From a virus: DNA of 41,230 nucleotides. The stretch lies in the IMG/VR virus record IMGVR_UViG_3300036985_003956, positions 1-41,230 of that record; one strand, written 5' to 3'. Positions 681-39,374 of the stretch are shown here, in pieces. The position numbers and the translations under genes were made by a program. Each line of letters starts with the position of its first letter. Within the stretch, counting starts at the first letter, position 1. The notes below the pieces were generated by a model. That model saw nothing but the letters and a program-made list of their open reading frames with translations, was not told the DNA's origin and searched no databases.

Positions 681-907
681 TAGCGTATTAATCCACAGTG
701 AGAAAAATCTATTGTTTTATATATCCCAACTTTACTAGATAATACACCAGGTGTTGTACAATATCCCTGAGTAGTTTTCGATATCCATAATGCACATAAT
801 TCCCTTTTACACTCAATCTCAAACAATTCATAATGGAATTTAGTTTGAGTTTCTCCCCTGGATAATTCATCTGTCATTAGTTGCTTACTCATCATCGGAC
901 AAATCAT
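680..907 (-). CDS. hypothetical phage protein (75 aa)
   Basis: Begins at ATG 907 behind a GGGGGG-type ribosome site and overlaps the stop of the CHAP gene by four bases. It is cysteine-containing (residues 3, 33, 37, 49 and 71) with no recognised domain. Tight coupling on both sides supports expression. Confidence 0.65.
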   Translation of the reverse strand: MICPMMSKQLMTDELSRGETQTKFHYELFEIECKRELCALWISKTTQGYCTTPGVLSSKVGIYKTIDFSHCGLIR

Positions 908-1527
908 GGTTTCCCCCCGGTTAGTCTCACATACACCATCAAATTCTTAGGCGTACCCTGATATACAATCCGTTTTACTTTTGACGGCGCTTTTCCCGTA
1001 TTTCCTTCAATAGTGATTATTCTGTTTGGTTCTACTCGTTCCACTATGCCGACGTGTCCCCCGGTATCACGGGAAAATACCGCTATGTCTCCCGGCTGAG
1101 GATTTTTGACATGTTTACCATACTGCAAAAAATTTGTTGAGCGCAAAGTATAGGGAATAGATAATCCTGATTTACTGGCACAGTACGACACAAAACCTGC
1201 GCACCACGGTAATCCCTGCCGTCCTTGCATATACTTGGCAACGTCCGGTCCGTAATTGTCAAAGATAAACTCTCCCTTTCCTATTTCCTGCCGGGCAACT
1301 GAGACAATATCCGCATGGGAATATTTAACCGTAACAAAGATGATAACCAAAATAACCGCAATAGCACCCACCGCACACCAAAAGTTGTTTCTTTTTCTCC
1401 GCGCTTCTTCCTCCAGATGGGCGAGTAGCATTTTCTTTGTCCCCTCTGTAATTTTTGCTTCAACTTCCTTTTGTTTCTCCGCCATATCGTTATGATATGA
1501 CCTCTCTGCCGATGGTGATGAATTCAT
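904..1527 (-). CDS. membrane-anchored CHAP-type peptidoglycan hydrolase (endolysin candidate)
   Basis: From start 1527 (207 aa; GGGGGTG upstream): a coiled, charged N-terminus, one transmembrane/signal-anchor segment at about residues 48-69, then a CHAP/NlpC-like domain. The catalytic Cys sits in GLPWCAGFVSYC and the His in GHVGIVERV; PQPGDIAVFSR is the usual CHAP connector. Such enzymes cut the peptide part of murein. The anchor suggests a signal-arrest-release or membrane-tethered lysin. The frame stays open upstream to 1713, so starts at 1665 or 1713 are possible. It lies in the leftward arm, away from the holin and spanins. Confidence 0.8.
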   Translation of the reverse strand: MNSSPSAERSYHNDMAEKQKEVEAKITEGTKKMLLAHLEEEARRKRNNFWCAVGAIAVILVIIFVTVKYSHADIVSVARQEIGKGEFIFDNYGPDVAKYMQGRQGLPWCAGFVSYCASKSGLSIPYTLRSTNFLQYGKHVKNPQPGDIAVFSRDTGGHVGIVERVEPNRIITIEGNTGKAPSKVKRIVYQGTPKNLMVYVRLTGGKP

Positions 1528-2562: not shown

Positions 2563-2745
2563 TCATGTTTTTTGTAAATGTTTTATACAACACTCATCCG
2601 AACAAAGATGGTATTCTTTCCGTATTCCATAACCGATAAAGTTATTAGCATATAATGTTTGCCAGTTATCTATTCCCCCAAAATATGTCTGCATCAAATC
2701 TTTTTCATTTCCACAAACATCACAGACTAATTTATGTATTTCCAT
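2563..2745 (-). CDS. zinc-binding microprotein (60 aa)
   Basis: Start 2745 is chosen because AGGGGAGGA precedes it; the frame is open further upstream to 2805. Cysteine pairs C-D-V-C near the N-terminus and C-S-D-E-C-C near the C-terminus (LCSDECCIKH) form a likely zinc site. Function unknown. Confidence 0.6.
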   Translation of the reverse strand: MEIHKLVCDVCGNEKDLMQTYFGGIDNWQTLYANNFIGYGIRKEYHLCSDECCIKHLQKT

Positions 2746-3664: not shown

Positions 3665-4340
3665 TTTTTAAATCCTCCGTAAGTTTTTTAAGTCCTCTTA
3701 AATTACTTTTTTGGGCTTTAGTTAAATTATCTTCAACTTCTACGTTTTCTTTTCTTGACCAAGCTAAAATCGTGTGATAGTGGCTTCCGTATTCTTTAAA
3801 TTTTTTAGGTTTCTGGTGAGCGTATTCATTAAGCCTTGATATTCTATCATCAGCACCTTCTTGCCCAAACTGTGATATTAACTTAGTATATTCTTCGGGA
3901 GTTAATAAAACAAATTCATGGTGGAGATGCTTATCTTCTTTTATATTATCTTTACTTATATTATCTTTACTTATATTAGGCGGGAGTACTCCAAGAGTAT
4001 TCGCCGATGATTCGTCGAATGATGGAACGGGAGGTAGTTTTGATTTTGTAGGTTTGTCTATCCTTTGATATTTTAAGAAGTTACGTATAAAACCATATTG
4101 TGATCCATCTACTTCATACCATTGAATTTTATGGTTAAGTTCTTTTTTTAACTTGCTTATATCAATTTTTATGTCATAGGGGAAGATTTGAGCTTTTAAA
4201 AGTTGATTCGCGGATTTAAATTTACCCTCATCATCAGCAAAATTCCATAGTCCTATATAAAAGAGACGTGCCGCAAAGCTCCATTGTCCTATTTCCTCGT
4301 CACTCCAAAATTCAGGGTCTATGATTCGCTTACGTGCCAT
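3597..4340 (-). CDS. phage replication initiation protein
   Basis: 247 aa from ATG 4340. The N-terminal winged-helix-like region ARKRIIDPEFWSDEE..., IGLWNFADDEGKF, and FLKYQRIDKPTKSK is the signature of phage replisome organisers. The middle contains a duplicated ISKDNISKDN linker, and the C-terminus is a helix-rich region with HYHTILAW. It would bind the origin and recruit helicase with the next gene. Start 4340 overlaps the HNH gene by 11 bases; an in-frame ATG at 4379 is less likely. Confidence 0.8.
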   Translation of the reverse strand: MARKRIIDPEFWSDEEIGQWSFAARLFYIGLWNFADDEGKFKSANQLLKAQIFPYDIKIDISKLKKELNHKIQWYEVDGSQYGFIRNFLKYQRIDKPTKSKLPPVPSFDESSANTLGVLPPNISKDNISKDNIKEDKHLHHEFVLLTPEEYTKLISQFGQEGADDRISRLNEYAHQKPKKFKEYGSHYHTILAWSRKENVEVEDNLTKAQKSNLRGLKKLTEDLKNDKRIIPTGVCGIDRGVSGNKV

Positions 4341-4646: not shown

Positions 4647-5225
4647 TTAAAGATTGAATTTATCATGTTTAATAAATTCCACTTGTTCTGGTTGATAATA
4701 TGGTCTATTCTTACAATATTTCTTAAACTTTTCCTCTCTTTTTTGTCTATGCTTAAACTCTAAGAATTTAAAACGAATTTGCAAATAACATTTAAATTTA
4801 TCTATTTTAAATCCCGGTATTGTTAAATAAGATTTTACTCTATTTACTTTTTTCAATATAGTTAAATATCTTCTTTTTTTTAAGTCTGGAAAAGTTAATA
4901 ATTGTCTTTCTAAAAAATCTTTAATTGGCTCTTTATTCCCGGAAAGTTTATATCTTATTATTATAAATCCAAAAGAAGATAAGTACTCATCTCTATATTC
5001 ATCTCTAATTTGAGTAGGTTTTTTATTATGTACTGCTCCATCAATTTCAATAATAATTCCTTTTTTAGGAATAGCTATATCGGCGATATACGGGGGGATA
5101 GCATATTGGGGATTAAACTCTATCCCCCAAGACGATAGTATGCTATAAAATTTCTGTTCATATAAATTATTCTTTTTAAATTGTTGTTTTCTATACATCA
5201 TTGTTCTTTCGGTCGTATTCATCAT
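4647..5225 (-). CDS. DUF559 / Vsr-like PD-(D/E)XK endonuclease
   Basis: 192 aa. IPPYIADIAIPKKGIIIEIDGAVHN carries the D...E-x-D core of DUF559/Vsr-like enzymes, followed by RDEYRDEYLSSFGFIIIRY. The C-terminal half is lysine-rich and probably binds DNA. Phage members are thought to be homing or nicking enzymes. No clear ribosome site precedes the ATG; expression may be coupled to the leader ORF ending 13 bases upstream. Confidence 0.8.
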   Translation of the reverse strand: MMNTTERTMMYRKQQFKKNNLYEQKFYSILSSWGIEFNPQYAIPPYIADIAIPKKGIIIEIDGAVHNKKPTQIRDEYRDEYLSSFGFIIIRYKLSGNKEPIKDFLERQLLTFPDLKKRRYLTILKKVNRVKSYLTIPGFKIDKFKCYLQIRFKFLEFKHRQKREEKFKKYCKNRPYYQPEQVEFIKHDKFNL

Positions 5226-5237
5226 AAATTTATTATA

Positions 5238-5399
5238 TTACAAAATAAATAATCCACCGGCAAGCAGGACAAACTTACCTCCGTGGGGGAGGCTGCCGAC
5301 CGGTGGATTACACAAAATAAAATCCGGCGCGAATAAATTCATATTCCTCGTCGGATTCTGGTTTTTGTTTGATTTTTCATAGTTTGTCATTTTTCTCAT
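5238..5399 (-). CDS. leader ORF A overlapping an attenuator-like hairpin (53 aa)
   Basis: Starts at ATG 5399 behind GTGGGGATGAAA and ends just beyond the hairpin at 5251-5309. Its C-terminus (FILCNPPVGSLP..., AGGLFIL) is simply the translation of the hairpin and T-run. A closely similar arrangement is at 39189-39320. It probably acts as a leader peptide rather than a working protein. Frame openings continue to 5423. Confidence 0.45.
   Translation of the reverse strand: MRKMTNYEKSNKNQNPTRNMNLFAPDFILCNPPVGSLPHGGKFVLLAGGLFIL
5251..5309 (-). terminator. attenuator-like hairpin in the DUF559 leader
   Basis: Perfect 10-bp outer stem AATCCACCGG/CCGGTGGATT (5251-5260 with 5300-5309) and inner stem CCTCC/GGAGG (5278-5282 with 5288-5292). 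Read leftward it is followed by ATTTATTTTG, a weak U-tract, then the DUF559 start. The outer stem is a palindrome in either direction. Confidence 0.65.
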
Positions 5400-5428
5400 T
5401 TTCATCCCCACGATGAACAGCAAATAAA

Positions 5429-11237: not shown

Positions 11238-11420
11238 ATGCCGCTTACAAAGACTGGAAAAGAAGTTCTGGGAAATATGACAAAAGAATACGGAACGGAA
11301 AAAGGCAAAGAAGTCTTTTACGCTTCAATCAACAAAGGGAAATCCGGTTCCGAAGATTGGCATGGAGATGGTACGGTTTTAGGAAAGCGAAAAAAACGTA
11401 AATATTATCCGGTGGTTTGA
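11238..11420 (+). CDS. small basic head-region protein with KKRKYYPVV tail (60 aa)
   Basis: MPLTKTGKEVLGNMTKEYG...KGKEVFYASINKGKSG is a common small phage protein found near portal genes, function unknown. The C-terminus KKRKYYPVV almost repeats the end of the 23-residue peptide at 19676-19747. Confidence 0.7.
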   Translation: MPLTKTGKEVLGNMTKEYGTEKGKEVFYASINKGKSGSEDWHGDGTVLGKRKKRKYYPVV

Positions 11421-11421
11421 T

Positions 11422-11796
11422 ATGAATAATTATATTCTATTTTTTTTATTGTTGTTTATCGCGTACTCAGACTTTGAAAGAAAAATCATTCCTAACTGGA
11501 TTGTAATTCCGGGGATTGTTGCAGGGTTAATTGTCGGACAGCATTATTTTTGGTGTGCGATCATGTTTGGGATTGTGGCTATAGAGTACGGACTAGGATT
11601 GATGGCAGGTGGAGACGTTAAATTGTTTTCAATGATTGGGGCTTTCTTAGGAATCAAGGCGTTATTTGTTTTTTTGCTGACATTATTATTGATGCGGTGG
11701 TGTGTATCTATAAATCGCAAATTTAGAATCGCAGATTTCGCTAAAATACCGGTGGCTCCGTTTGCATTGGTATCAAGTTTGTTTTGTATGAGGTAA
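11422..11796 (+). CDS. prepilin-peptidase-like membrane protease (A24/CpaA-TadV type)
   Basis: 124 aa, about four transmembrane helices. Both catalytic-aspartate motifs are present: YSDFERKIIPNWI near residue 17 and GGDVKLFSMIGAF near residue 72. The latter matches the G-x-G/GGD-x-K signature of A24 prepilin peptidases. The short length without an N-methylase domain is typical of CpaA/TadV. These enzymes cut prepilin leaders at the inner membrane. It lies between head genes, one base after the previous stop, so it is part of the late operon. Pili are common phage receptors; a role in altering or using them is inference. Confidence 0.8.
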   Translation: MNNYILFFLLLFIAYSDFERKIIPNWIVIPGIVAGLIVGQHYFWCAIMFGIVAIEYGLGLMAGGDVKLFSMIGAFLGIKALFVFLLTLLLMRWCVSINRKFRIADFAKIPVAPFALVSSLFCMR

Positions 11797-36678: not shown

Positions 36679-36790
36679 CATTCCTCCTTTTTATTTCGCG
36701 AATCTTGTTTTCAATTTCTAATATAAGCATAAATTCAGATCCCACCACGTGACAAACTCTTTTCAGCTCCGGGAGTCGCTCATTACGCAC
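36668..36790 (-). CDS. basic microprotein (40 aa, GTG start)
   Basis: Open frame from GTG 36790 (RNERLPELKRVCHVVGSEF) running into the DUF1566 start. It fills the gap between two genes and overlaps both, but no ribosome site is clear. Confidence 0.35.
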   Translation of the reverse strand: MRNERLPELKRVCHVVGSEFMLILEIENKIREIKRRNDGR

Positions 36791-37019
36791 CACCTTGACG
36801 TAATCCAGCGATTTTATAAACCGAGTGAAAATGTTTCGTCCTGGGATTCTGCACTCGTTCCGTAACGACGTTAATTCCTTCTTTCCTGAGGTCCCGAATT
36901 TTCTCCCGAATAGAAATGCAACCGTTGAATTTTCTTACTGCTTCGTGAAACGTCAAACTATTACCGGTCATAAGATATTGGAGGATTCTTGATTTATCGC
37001 TCAGTTTCTTCATCATCAC
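36783..37019 (-). CDS. winged-helix-like small DNA-binding protein (78 aa)
   Basis: SDKSRILQYLMTGNSLTFHEAVRKFNG...IRDLRKEGINVVTE is the small helix-turn-helix protein common in phages. AGGTG precedes the ATG. Likely a regulator. The structured element at 37030-37198 lies directly upstream in its leader. Confidence 0.75.
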   Translation of the reverse strand: MMMKKLSDKSRILQYLMTGNSLTFHEAVRKFNGCISIREKIRDLRKEGINVVTERVQNPRTKHFHSVYKIAGLRQGGA

Positions 37020-37029
37020 CTCTTGTTGT

Positions 37030-37198
37030 GGATGGGGAGGCAGGATTTTTACCTGCTAGGCCGATTCAAAGGGTCTGCCCAGTTCAGATACCATTTCTGG
37101 TCGAGAGTCCTGGATGAGTATCCACCGTCTATCGGTTATTGCGGAGTCAAACCGCTCTCTCTCGTTGTTCCGCGTGTTCATCACGCCACTCCCCACCC
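37030..37198 (-). ncRNA. candidate structured RNA with tRNA-like ends
   Basis: Minus strand: ends GGGTGGGGAG and CTCCCCATCC pair over 10 bp with one G-U (the plus strand would have an A-C mismatch). Inside: GCGT/ACGC with a 7-base loop, a GCGG/CCGC hairpin with a 7-base loop, CGAGAG/CTCTCG, GGAT/ATCC, ACCA/TGGT closing a GAAA tetraloop, and a T-arm-like GCAGG/CCTGC with a 7-base loop (37040-37056). The 3' end can be read as acceptor CTCCCCA, T, CCA. A 41-residue ORF (stop 37056) also reads through it. Confidence 0.5.
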
Positions 37199-37206
37199 AG
37201 CAATCA

Positions 37207-37395
37207 TTATTGTCCCTTAGTTTCTGATTCAGGGTTCTCACCGGTTACTTCTTTATCAGTAAAAGTTATCGTCGTACCATGCGAGTAAGAAAACGATACG
37301 TCAATCTCTTTGTCCGGGAACATCGGAGAGTATTTATCTGACAATATCTGCTTAGTTTCTTTTTCTGTCAACTTGATTTCTATTATCATCATCAA
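37207..37395 (-). CDS. hypothetical protein (62 aa)
   Basis: MIIEIKLTEKETKQILSDKY then a beta-type part. Precedes the candidate RNA and follows the SSB-like gene. No family. Confidence 0.6.
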   Translation of the reverse strand: MMMIIEIKLTEKETKQILSDKYSPMFPDKEIDVSFSYSHGTTITFTDKEVTGENPESETKGQ

Positions 37396-37851: not shown

Positions 37852-38454
37852 TTAGCCTCCTATTTTTTTAACTACTTCGGTTAAATCAGAACAGAAATTT
37901 TGAAGCTCAACAGCAAGTATGCTCTGAAATTGTTTGTTCGGTTCAACGCGGATGATAAACGGTTTTATTCCCGGATAGTATGAACAGAAATCCACATATG
38001 CTCGTCCAGTAACAAATAATTGACCGTTTACTTGCAAAAAATATTCCGTAGGTAACTTGTTTTCCATTAAGTACGATACATGGGTTTCCGGTTTCGGACA
38101 TTTAATTTCCAGTAATCCATCGTCATCAATCAACCCATCCGGGCTGGCTCCAACGATAAAATCTCCTTCGGTTACGCAGAATCCTACCTGCACTATTGAC
38201 TTACCGGAAATAACCTCATACAACTGCCGGGCTTCCGATTCTGTTTCTACACCTTTCAGCATCGCCGCACTCTGATACGTTTCTTCTGTCCTACCCGCAA
38301 TTCTTTCAGCCGATAATTGATACATATACTTTTCACGAGAAGCAGAACGCTTTCCGGTAGTGGTAATTATTTTGTCAAAACATGATGATGTGGGAATCCC
38401 AAGTCTTGCTAAATACCATGAAGTTTCACCTTGTACGCAATCAATAACTCTCAT
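37852..38454 (-). CDS. YqaJ-type viral recombinase exonuclease (200 aa)
   Basis: YqaJ/lambda-exonuclease fold: WYLARLGIPTSS at the N-terminus; catalytic GASPDGLIDDDGLLEIKCPK with D, E-x-K; YFLQVNGQLFVTG (Q in the motif-III helix) and FCSYYPG. It degrades one strand of double-stranded ends so that ERF can anneal. Overlaps ERF by four bases. Confidence 0.9.
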   Translation of the reverse strand: MRVIDCVQGETSWYLARLGIPTSSCFDKIITTTGKRSASREKYMYQLSAERIAGRTEETYQSAAMLKGVETESEARQLYEVISGKSIVQVGFCVTEGDFIVGASPDGLIDDDGLLEIKCPKPETHVSYLMENKLPTEYFLQVNGQLFVTGRAYVDFCSYYPGIKPFIIRVEPNKQFQSILAVELQNFCSDLTEVVKKIGG

Positions 38455-39176
38455 TTCGCCACCTTATTTTTCTTCTTATTCTGCAAGGCAATCATGGCTT
38501 TCTGGTAATCTTCTTTCGGGAGTTCTTCGAGTTTTTCCACTTTGAGATATTTAAAAAATACCTCATTTTCTTTGGCTGATAAATTAAGTTCAGCCAGCAG
38601 GTCAAGGATTGCGTTACCTTGCTCTTTGGTGATATACTCAACCGCTTTTTGACCTGATGCTCTACCGTCATCATCCATATCCTCGGTAGCAAGTCCGGTC
38701 AAAGCAAGCAAAGTATAGCGTTCAAGATAGGTAATTGTTGACCCTATAGCCTGTATGGAGTTTTTAGATCCGCTGGAATCAGCCGCCGCCGAAAGAGTGG
38801 TTTCTTCGCTATGCCCTTGCATATGAGTTATCCGGCAAGTAACCATAATAACCTCGTTTTGTTTGGTAGTCCACGACGCAGAAAGACCATGCTTGCTAAG
38901 CTCCGCACCGATTTTCTTTGTTACATTTCCCAGGGAAGCATGATTATAATGTGTGTTCCCATAAGAAACTTTTTTGTCCTTATCAATCTCCGGCGGGTTA
39001 GCTTTAAAATTAGCCATCGCCTTATGGTATGACTTCCGTGCTTCGTTTGCATCAAACCTCTCTTTTATCTCAAGCAGTTTTTCCAACTTAGAAAGGTCAA
39101 CCCCTTTGTCAATCGCCATTTCAATTAAACTGCTTGGCGACTTTCCCACCTCAATTATTTCTTTTTTGTCTTCCAT
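38451..39176 (-). CDS. erf: ERF-family single-strand annealing protein
   Basis: 241 aa. MANFKANPPEIDKDKKVSYG, then YNHASLGNVTKKIGAELSKHGLSASW and IGSTITYLERYTLLALTGLATEDMDDDG are ERF signatures. C-terminal helical domain. It anneals strands made by the exonuclease, usual for phage recombination and concatemer formation. GGGGAGG precedes ATG 39176, right after leader B. Confidence 0.92.
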   Translation of the reverse strand: MEDKKEIIEVGKSPSSLIEMAIDKGVDLSKLEKLLEIKERFDANEARKSYHKAMANFKANPPEIDKDKKVSYGNTHYNHASLGNVTKKIGAELSKHGLSASWTTKQNEVIMVTCRITHMQGHSEETTLSAAADSSGSKNSIQAIGSTITYLERYTLLALTGLATEDMDDDGRASGQKAVEYITKEQGNAILDLLAELNLSAKENEVFFKYLKVEKLEELPKEDYQKAMIALQNKKKNKVAK

Positions 39177-39188
39177 CCTCTACCTCCC

Positions 39189-39320
39189 CTAAAATAAAAA
39201 TGCCTCAGCCGGGACAATAAAGATTGCTCTGCCAGAAGCTCCCGGACTGAGGCGATTAGACAAAAAAATACCGGCGAGGTTTTCTTTCTCGTCGGTTAGA
39301 TTGTCGGTGTAATTTCTCAT
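39189..39320 (-). CDS. leader ORF B overlapping an attenuator-like hairpin (43 aa)
   Basis: AAGGGATAAAAA precedes ATG 39320. The C-terminal half (GIFLSNRLSPGASGRAIF...) is read through the hairpin at 39202-39253 and ends in the T-run. It has the same plan and partly alignable ending as leader ORF A at 5238-5399. Probably a regulatory leader peptide for the recombination operon. Confidence 0.5.
   Translation of the reverse strand: MRNYTDNLTDEKENLAGIFLSNRLSPGASGRAIFIVPAEAFLF
39202..39253 (-). terminator. attenuator-like branched hairpin ahead of the ERF operon
   Basis: Stem GCCTCAG/CTGAGGC (7 bp) stacked on CCGGGA/TCCCGG (6 bp) with one bulged base; inside are CAAT/ATTG and a GCT..AGC hairpin. 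Leftward it is followed by ATTTTTATTTT, then the ERF ribosome site. Strong enough to end or pause transcription. Confidence 0.7.
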
Positions 39321-39345
39321 TTTTTATCCCTTCTGGCAATGGTTA

Positions 39346-39374
39346 AATATAACATGGAATTTATGGTTTGTCAA
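39346..39374 (-). promoter_or_regulatory. promoter of the recombination operon
   Basis: -35 TTGACA (39369-39374), 17-bp spacer, -10 TATATT (39346-39351). The -35 lies in the end of the upstream gene. Leader ORF B starts 26 bases downstream. Confidence 0.8.

Follow-up and report, generated by a model that had tools for sequence, protein, structure and literature searches.

Here, we propose that an RNA encoded on the minus strand of an IMG/VR virus record of 41,230 bases (the window) is probably a phage-encoded tRNA mimic, a noncoding RNA that joins the upper half of a tRNA, as a chassis, to a phage-specific body and may act as a decoy or an adaptor. Sequence comparison places it in a widespread class of covarying phage RNAs. 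The class matches no known family at curated thresholds (Rfam, ARAGORN), and the window RNA has no Rfam or ARAGORN match, neither to tRNA (RF00005) nor to tmRNA (RF00023). No published description of the class was found in the literature searched, which was incomplete and included few subscription papers. RNAs that mimic tRNA are a known kind (YrlA, tmRNA, mascRNA, and the irregular tRNAs); a class with the two signatures described here is apparently uncatalogued. An earlier, sequence-only reading of this DNA had proposed a new structured RNA with tRNA-like termini, possibly a tRNA mimic or a processed RNA, a proposal supported by the large covarying family to which the RNA belongs.

Fold and anatomy of the window RNA

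Positions 37020-37208, folded as the minus strand, have a minimum free energy (MFE) of -69.5 kcal/mol (z -4.35), a value equalled by none of 200 shuffles. The same region of the plus strand folds more weakly (z -3.55), and the single G-U of the 10-bp closing stem (GGGUGGGGAG/CUCCCCAUCC on the minus strand) would become an A-C there, in agreement with the strand that the sequence-only reading favoured. Across the phage, only one of 434 tiles lay below the RNA locus in a shuffled fold scan (39141, plus strand, z -5.26), and in a composition-only fold scan the locus fell outside the top 40.

The closing stem consists of the 7-bp acceptor and three further pairs between the leader GGG and UCC (Table 1), a pairing that could hinder RNase P. 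The T-arm-like hairpin, the 7-nt acceptor strand CUCCCCA, the CCA, and the matching 5' strand (7/7 pairs) are all present as first described. Absent from that description was the D-arm equivalent at 37186-37172, the feature that identifies the family. In order and spacing, the elements of the window RNA match those of a tRNA: an acceptor of 7 bp, then bases 8-9 and the D arm, and a T arm without a spacer.

The D loop of the window RNA (AUGAA) lacks the GG seen in most relatives, its T loop (UAAAAAU) lacks the canonical UUC, and its base 8 is U, as against C8 in 47 of the 49 family members. Judged from these bases, the two loops cannot form the usual G18G19-Psi55C56 elbow, and the window copy reads as a divergent member, the canonical elbow bases having been lost from each of its loops.

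In the single MFE fold, the body is multibranched, with a 6-bp stem (37159-37164/37102-37107) around three hairpins, followed by ACCA-GAAA-UGGU, which contains the GAAA tetraloop noted before, and one more arm. No homologous body was found for the window RNA. Comparison backs the acceptor and the D and T elements; for the body, the six or more stems come from one predicted fold only. Of the architecture first described, at least six local stems within a 10-bp closing stem, the closing stem stands, its acceptor part covarying in relatives, and the body stems keep the status of a prediction.

Table 1. Features of the tRNA-like RNA and its neighbourhood, in window coordinates.
Feature	Position	Strand	Basis
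tRNA-like RNA, acceptor to acceptor, 163 nt	37033..37195	-	covariance model R1, window left out
Acceptor 5' strand UGGGGAG	37189..37195	-	7/7 pairs with 37033-37039; acceptor columns covary in relatives
Positions 8-9 UG, two-base joint of tRNA	37187..37188	-	pattern matches
D-like hairpin GCGUG-AUGAA-CACGC	37172..37186	-	predicted fold and family consensus
Body, 115 nt, in place of anticodon arm and variable loop	37057..37171	-	MFE prediction only
T-like arm GCAGG-UAAAAAU-CCUGC, 5 bp and 7-nt loop	37040..37056	-	fold; outer T-stem pairs covary in relatives
Acceptor 3' strand CUCCCCA	37033..37039	-	pairing; covariation in relatives
Discriminator U and encoded CCA	37029..37032	-	sequence
Leader GGG, pairs with UCC 37030-37032	37196..37198	-	predicted fold
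Winged-helix HTH_39 (PF14090) gene, downstream of the RNA	36783..37019	-	E=3.2e-7
Small ORF without family, upstream of the RNA	37207..37395	-	family search
YqaJ exonuclease and ERF annealing protein, upstream, same strand as the RNA	37852..39176	-	domain matches
Candidate early promoter TTGACA-17-TATATT, 11/12, ahead of ERF	39346..39374	-	consensus match only

Relatives and family consensus

DNA similarity to named phages gave only chance matches for the window RNA, and a search of IMG/VR for close protein relatives of two genes beside it found none. A first BLAST match, in G006, was rejected as a chance similarity within a gene. Relatives of YqaJ and ERF were used as a route to related records, and a descriptor scan of these brought out the same layout in three of them (L026, L006, and L036). 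The RNA does not track the YqaJ/ERF cassette: 4 of 46 relatives' records pass E 0.001, one of them with an ordinary tRNA-Leu. The L036 RNA (881-1064, plus strand; 184 nt) has the same layout with D loop GCGGUAA and T loop UGAAAAU. It goes undetected at E<1 by the covariance model described below (R1), and the class is thus broader than R1.

A search pattern consisting of the D stem and the inner T arm, drawn to include the window's own, was scanned in IMG/VR and in GTDB genomes, and gave 76 non-redundant matches in phage contigs and MAGs, the window included. At least six of the seven acceptor pairs form in 49 non-redundant RNAs (window included) and all seven in 37; when 5' and 3' strands are mismatched, 6.6% of pairings reach six or more. 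The remaining matches mostly make up a separate low-pairing group, as chance matches should, although a few of them (L105, L166, and L171) proved to be genuine members whose acceptor strands pair in another register or a shifted one. This bimodal distribution, obtained before any selection, is unbiased evidence for the family. Among 29 genomes around the MAG holding L135, that MAG alone had a match.

The family consensus reads acceptor, C8-G9, GCGUG-GUGGGAA-CACGC, a body of 57-115 nt, NNNGG-UUCRAAU-CCNNN, and acceptor, with CCA encoded in only 4 of the 49 members. The D-loop GG and the T-loop UUC co-occur (30/6/3/10; Fisher p=1.8e-4, kinship not corrected), being present or absent together more often than chance predicts, as an elbow contact would demand. 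One member of the L189 array has T loop UGAAAAU with a short D loop. A subgroup of bodies (L160, L165, L168, L173, L174, L171, and L156) has in common an internal loop GUAAAAC/GACAAAG and a hairpin containing UUGASAAGAC, which could be a binding site.

Covariation and the covariance model

The covariation alignment comprised 45 sequences, each selected as having 6/7 or more acceptor pairs, with the window left out. Ten pairs lie outside the search pattern, and these are formed in 97.1% of cases as against 58.7% when shuffled; the choice of sequences raises the acceptor percentage, and the three outer T-stem pairs (97.8%) were unselected. Double changes occur at all ten, with a covariation of 0.988 compared with 0.209 when shuffled and no more than 0.13 after sliding. 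The check for covariation in relatives that the sequence-only reading called for turned out in favour of a structured RNA. So did its other one, which set the stems against a 41-residue ORF as the object of conservation: the stems are kept in relatives, and the ORF (ATG inside 37056-37241, minus strand) has zero relatives in 3.08 Mb of fetched sequence.

Are these merely phage tRNA genes that have decayed and lost their function? The degenerate loops of the window copy and the position of some members within tRNA arrays would suit such an origin. Across the family, however, compensatory changes preserve both the acceptor and the T stem, and 97% pairing is not expected from decay, which we consider improbable as an account of the class. 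For the single window copy alone, decay is possible.

With R1, built without the window, the RNA of the window scores 41.4 bits (E=1.7e-7 over the window, filters off), the next-best match within the window having E=0.39. The pattern had been designed to cover the window as well, which leaves this score only partly independent. Matches to the pattern in which hardly any acceptor pairs form stay at or below about 28 bits. L006, absent from the training set and outside the pattern, has a score of 58.4 bits. Cleaner evidence than the window's own R1 score comes from the acceptor pairing and from L006.

In the suggested ARAGORN search, the window is uncalled (as it is by Rfam), and with introns allowed ARAGORN calls a tRNA in 25 of the 49 members, as if they were ordinary tRNAs from which the body is removed as an intron by splicing. 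Nevertheless, shuffled bodies still give 18-21 calls in 49, the anticodons and intron positions called are scattered, and the bodies would seem too short for known group I introns, which together make splicing highly unlikely.

Genomic settings

In the window, the RNA occupies the gap between the end of a small ORF at 37207 and the start of the HTH_39 gene at 37019. The gene is the winged-helix regulator that the RNA had been said to precede, and its start codon lies 13 nt beyond the end of the RNA, a spacing that would suit a cis-regulatory leader of this gene. Such a leader, also raised in the sequence-only reading, is disfavoured and in our view very improbable because relatives of the RNA precede unrelated genes, tRNAs, or tmRNA, and form arrays.

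Some members of the family stand alone and others form arrays of as many as five; some lie five bases from tRNA genes, and some beside tmRNA. Five stand in a row in L189 and several in L026. The L165 RNA (3983-4094) sits between tRNA-Gln (ending at 3977) and tRNA-Arg (starting at 4100), 5 nt from each, and in L160, L173, and L200 the RNA is about 5 nt from tmRNA. The recognised neighbour proteins have mostly early replication and recombination functions. Spurious ORFs are common, and 47% of the RNAs overlap by over half with a selected ORF of at least 80 aa, compared with 84% of random positions; the RNAs thus avoid coding sequence.

These arrays also bear on whether the RNA could be a relic of integration, an attP site with a piece of a host tRNA gene. 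Such sites often contain the 3' half of a tRNA. Here, both acceptor strands are present and covary, the arrays carry several different bodies, and a non-exhaustive look saw no integrase adjoining the window RNA; a relic of this kind is extremely unlikely.

Other structured elements were seen in the same sequences. The tmRNAs adjoining the RNA in phage contigs are full-length (L160:1431-1772, L200:5553-5894, and L173:1531-1871), and Pistol ribozymes also occur in L160 and L200. L107 carries a phage-borne tmRNA-like RNA (11319-11437, minus strand; 119 nt; Rfam tmRNA E=1.5e-23) with apparently no space for a tag domain and with other tRNA-like RNAs alongside. L015 has an 81-nt tRNA-like element (2619-2699, minus strand) with acceptor GGTCCCG, T loop TGCGAGC, and no recognised anticodon arm, adjoining a structured three-way element and lying about 0.5 kb from a tRNA-Met. 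In the window, the leader before ERF (39165-39365, minus strand) is structured (fold z -3.3; z -5.26 on the plus strand in the tiled scan) and comes with a strong promoter-like site at 39374-39346 and a 43-residue ORF; its hairpin GCCTCAG..CTGAGGC, followed by U-rich sequence, could be an attenuator. A long intergenic hairpin at 5195-5425 (minus strand; z -5.05) has no Rfam match.

A sister type in named phages

The D arm of the first RNA of L026 led, by matching, to SPP1, VEsP-1, KLEB27-1, Lenus, BtpYZU01, and WC29P3. This sister type is carried by SPP1 and by Enterococcus and Lactobacillus phages as an intergenic RNA, which in these named phages is unannotated and receives no ARAGORN or Rfam call. 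In SPP1, it falls between genes 9 and 11 and would be about 107 nt long. A pattern scan of IMG/VR gave at least 93 non-redundant matches, with a perfect acceptor in 79 of 93 among the matches listed. The two types have the acceptor, D-like arm, variable body, and T arm in common; the SPP1 type differs in its D arm (GGCGGAAUAGGUAGACGC), its T loop (UGCAAAU), and an extra junction pair, giving 13 bp. L026 combines an SPP1-type D arm and the window type within one array.

Proposed role

In light of the window RNA probably being a tRNA mimic, what might it do? No anticodon arm is backed by the relatives, and decoding is therefore unlikely. We infer that the RNA is transcribed from the minus strand together with the early recombination genes. 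RNase P would then cut its 5' end and the 3' end would be trimmed in the manner of a tRNA, leaving a stable RNA; the features seen that bear on such processing are the UCCA encoded at the window RNA and the 5-nt spacing to the tRNAs in L165. The tRNA-like upper half may dock on tRNA-binding host factors, and the variable body, diverging between phages, would carry a phage-specific activity. The most plausible activity would be that of a decoy or adaptor diverting a tRNA-acting host enzyme. YrlA offers a precedent for a role of this sort: its tRNA-like domain has been suggested to inhibit an anticodon nuclease by competition (PMC7790460).

More broadly, and with rather less than even confidence, we suggest that phages may widely carry modular RNAs of this design, in which a conserved chassis from the upper half of a tRNA bears a diversifying payload in place of the anticodon arm, with arrays made through the host tRNA pathway and the products acting as decoys or adaptors against tRNA-acting host enzymes or defences. 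Should the RNAs prove to be tRNA decoys or adaptors, they would form the RNA counterpart of the phage proteins that inhibit host defences, and would explain some of the unannotated intergenic gaps of phages. In any case, a phage RNA family supported by covariation has been missed by tRNA finders and by Rfam, and because SPP1 and other phages with the sister type can be cultivated, expression, processing, and function are directly testable.

Comparison with known RNAs

Might the window RNA instead be a bacterial Y RNA of the YrlA type, whose tRNA-like part tethers the Ro60 ring protein and PNPase? YrlA has a tRNA-like domain, and the existence of Y RNAs in phages has been put forward (PMC7790460, PMC12282133). 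In both cases, a tRNA-like module lies within a non-decoding RNA, known in bacteria and suggested in phages. Unlike Y RNAs, the window class stands in tRNA-style arrays, gives zero Rfam matches to a Y RNA, and is without a Ro60 gene: TROVE/Ro60 was found in 0 of 49 records including the window (at least 46 of which carry the RNA), with a positive control genome, several of the records being fragments and Ro60 being a protein that could come from the host. We therefore regard a Y RNA as quite unlikely, and retain the reading of a phage tRNA mimic.

The tmRNA (RF00023) likewise combines a tRNA acceptor and T arm with a large insert, and adjoins the class in three of the contigs described above. 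The window class differs in having a paired D-like stem, and the window itself in lacking a tmRNA match. A small tRNA-like RNA is also found in mascRNA-menRNA (RF01684), which is excised by RNase P and to which part of the L113 RNA is weakly similar (E=0.0011; 29 bits, with a cut-off of 42.5). In contrast to the window class, mascRNA-menRNA is eukaryotic and about 60 nt long, with a small arm where the class has its body of 57-115 nt.

Lastly, irregular tRNAs and allo-tRNA-like polycistrons form clusters of unusual tRNA-like genes in soil data, some of them not aminoacylated (PMC7609411, citing Mukai et al. 2017). The irregular tRNAs are described as 8/4 or five-stem cloverleaves with anticodons, and are set apart by this description from the window class, in which the anticodon arm is replaced.
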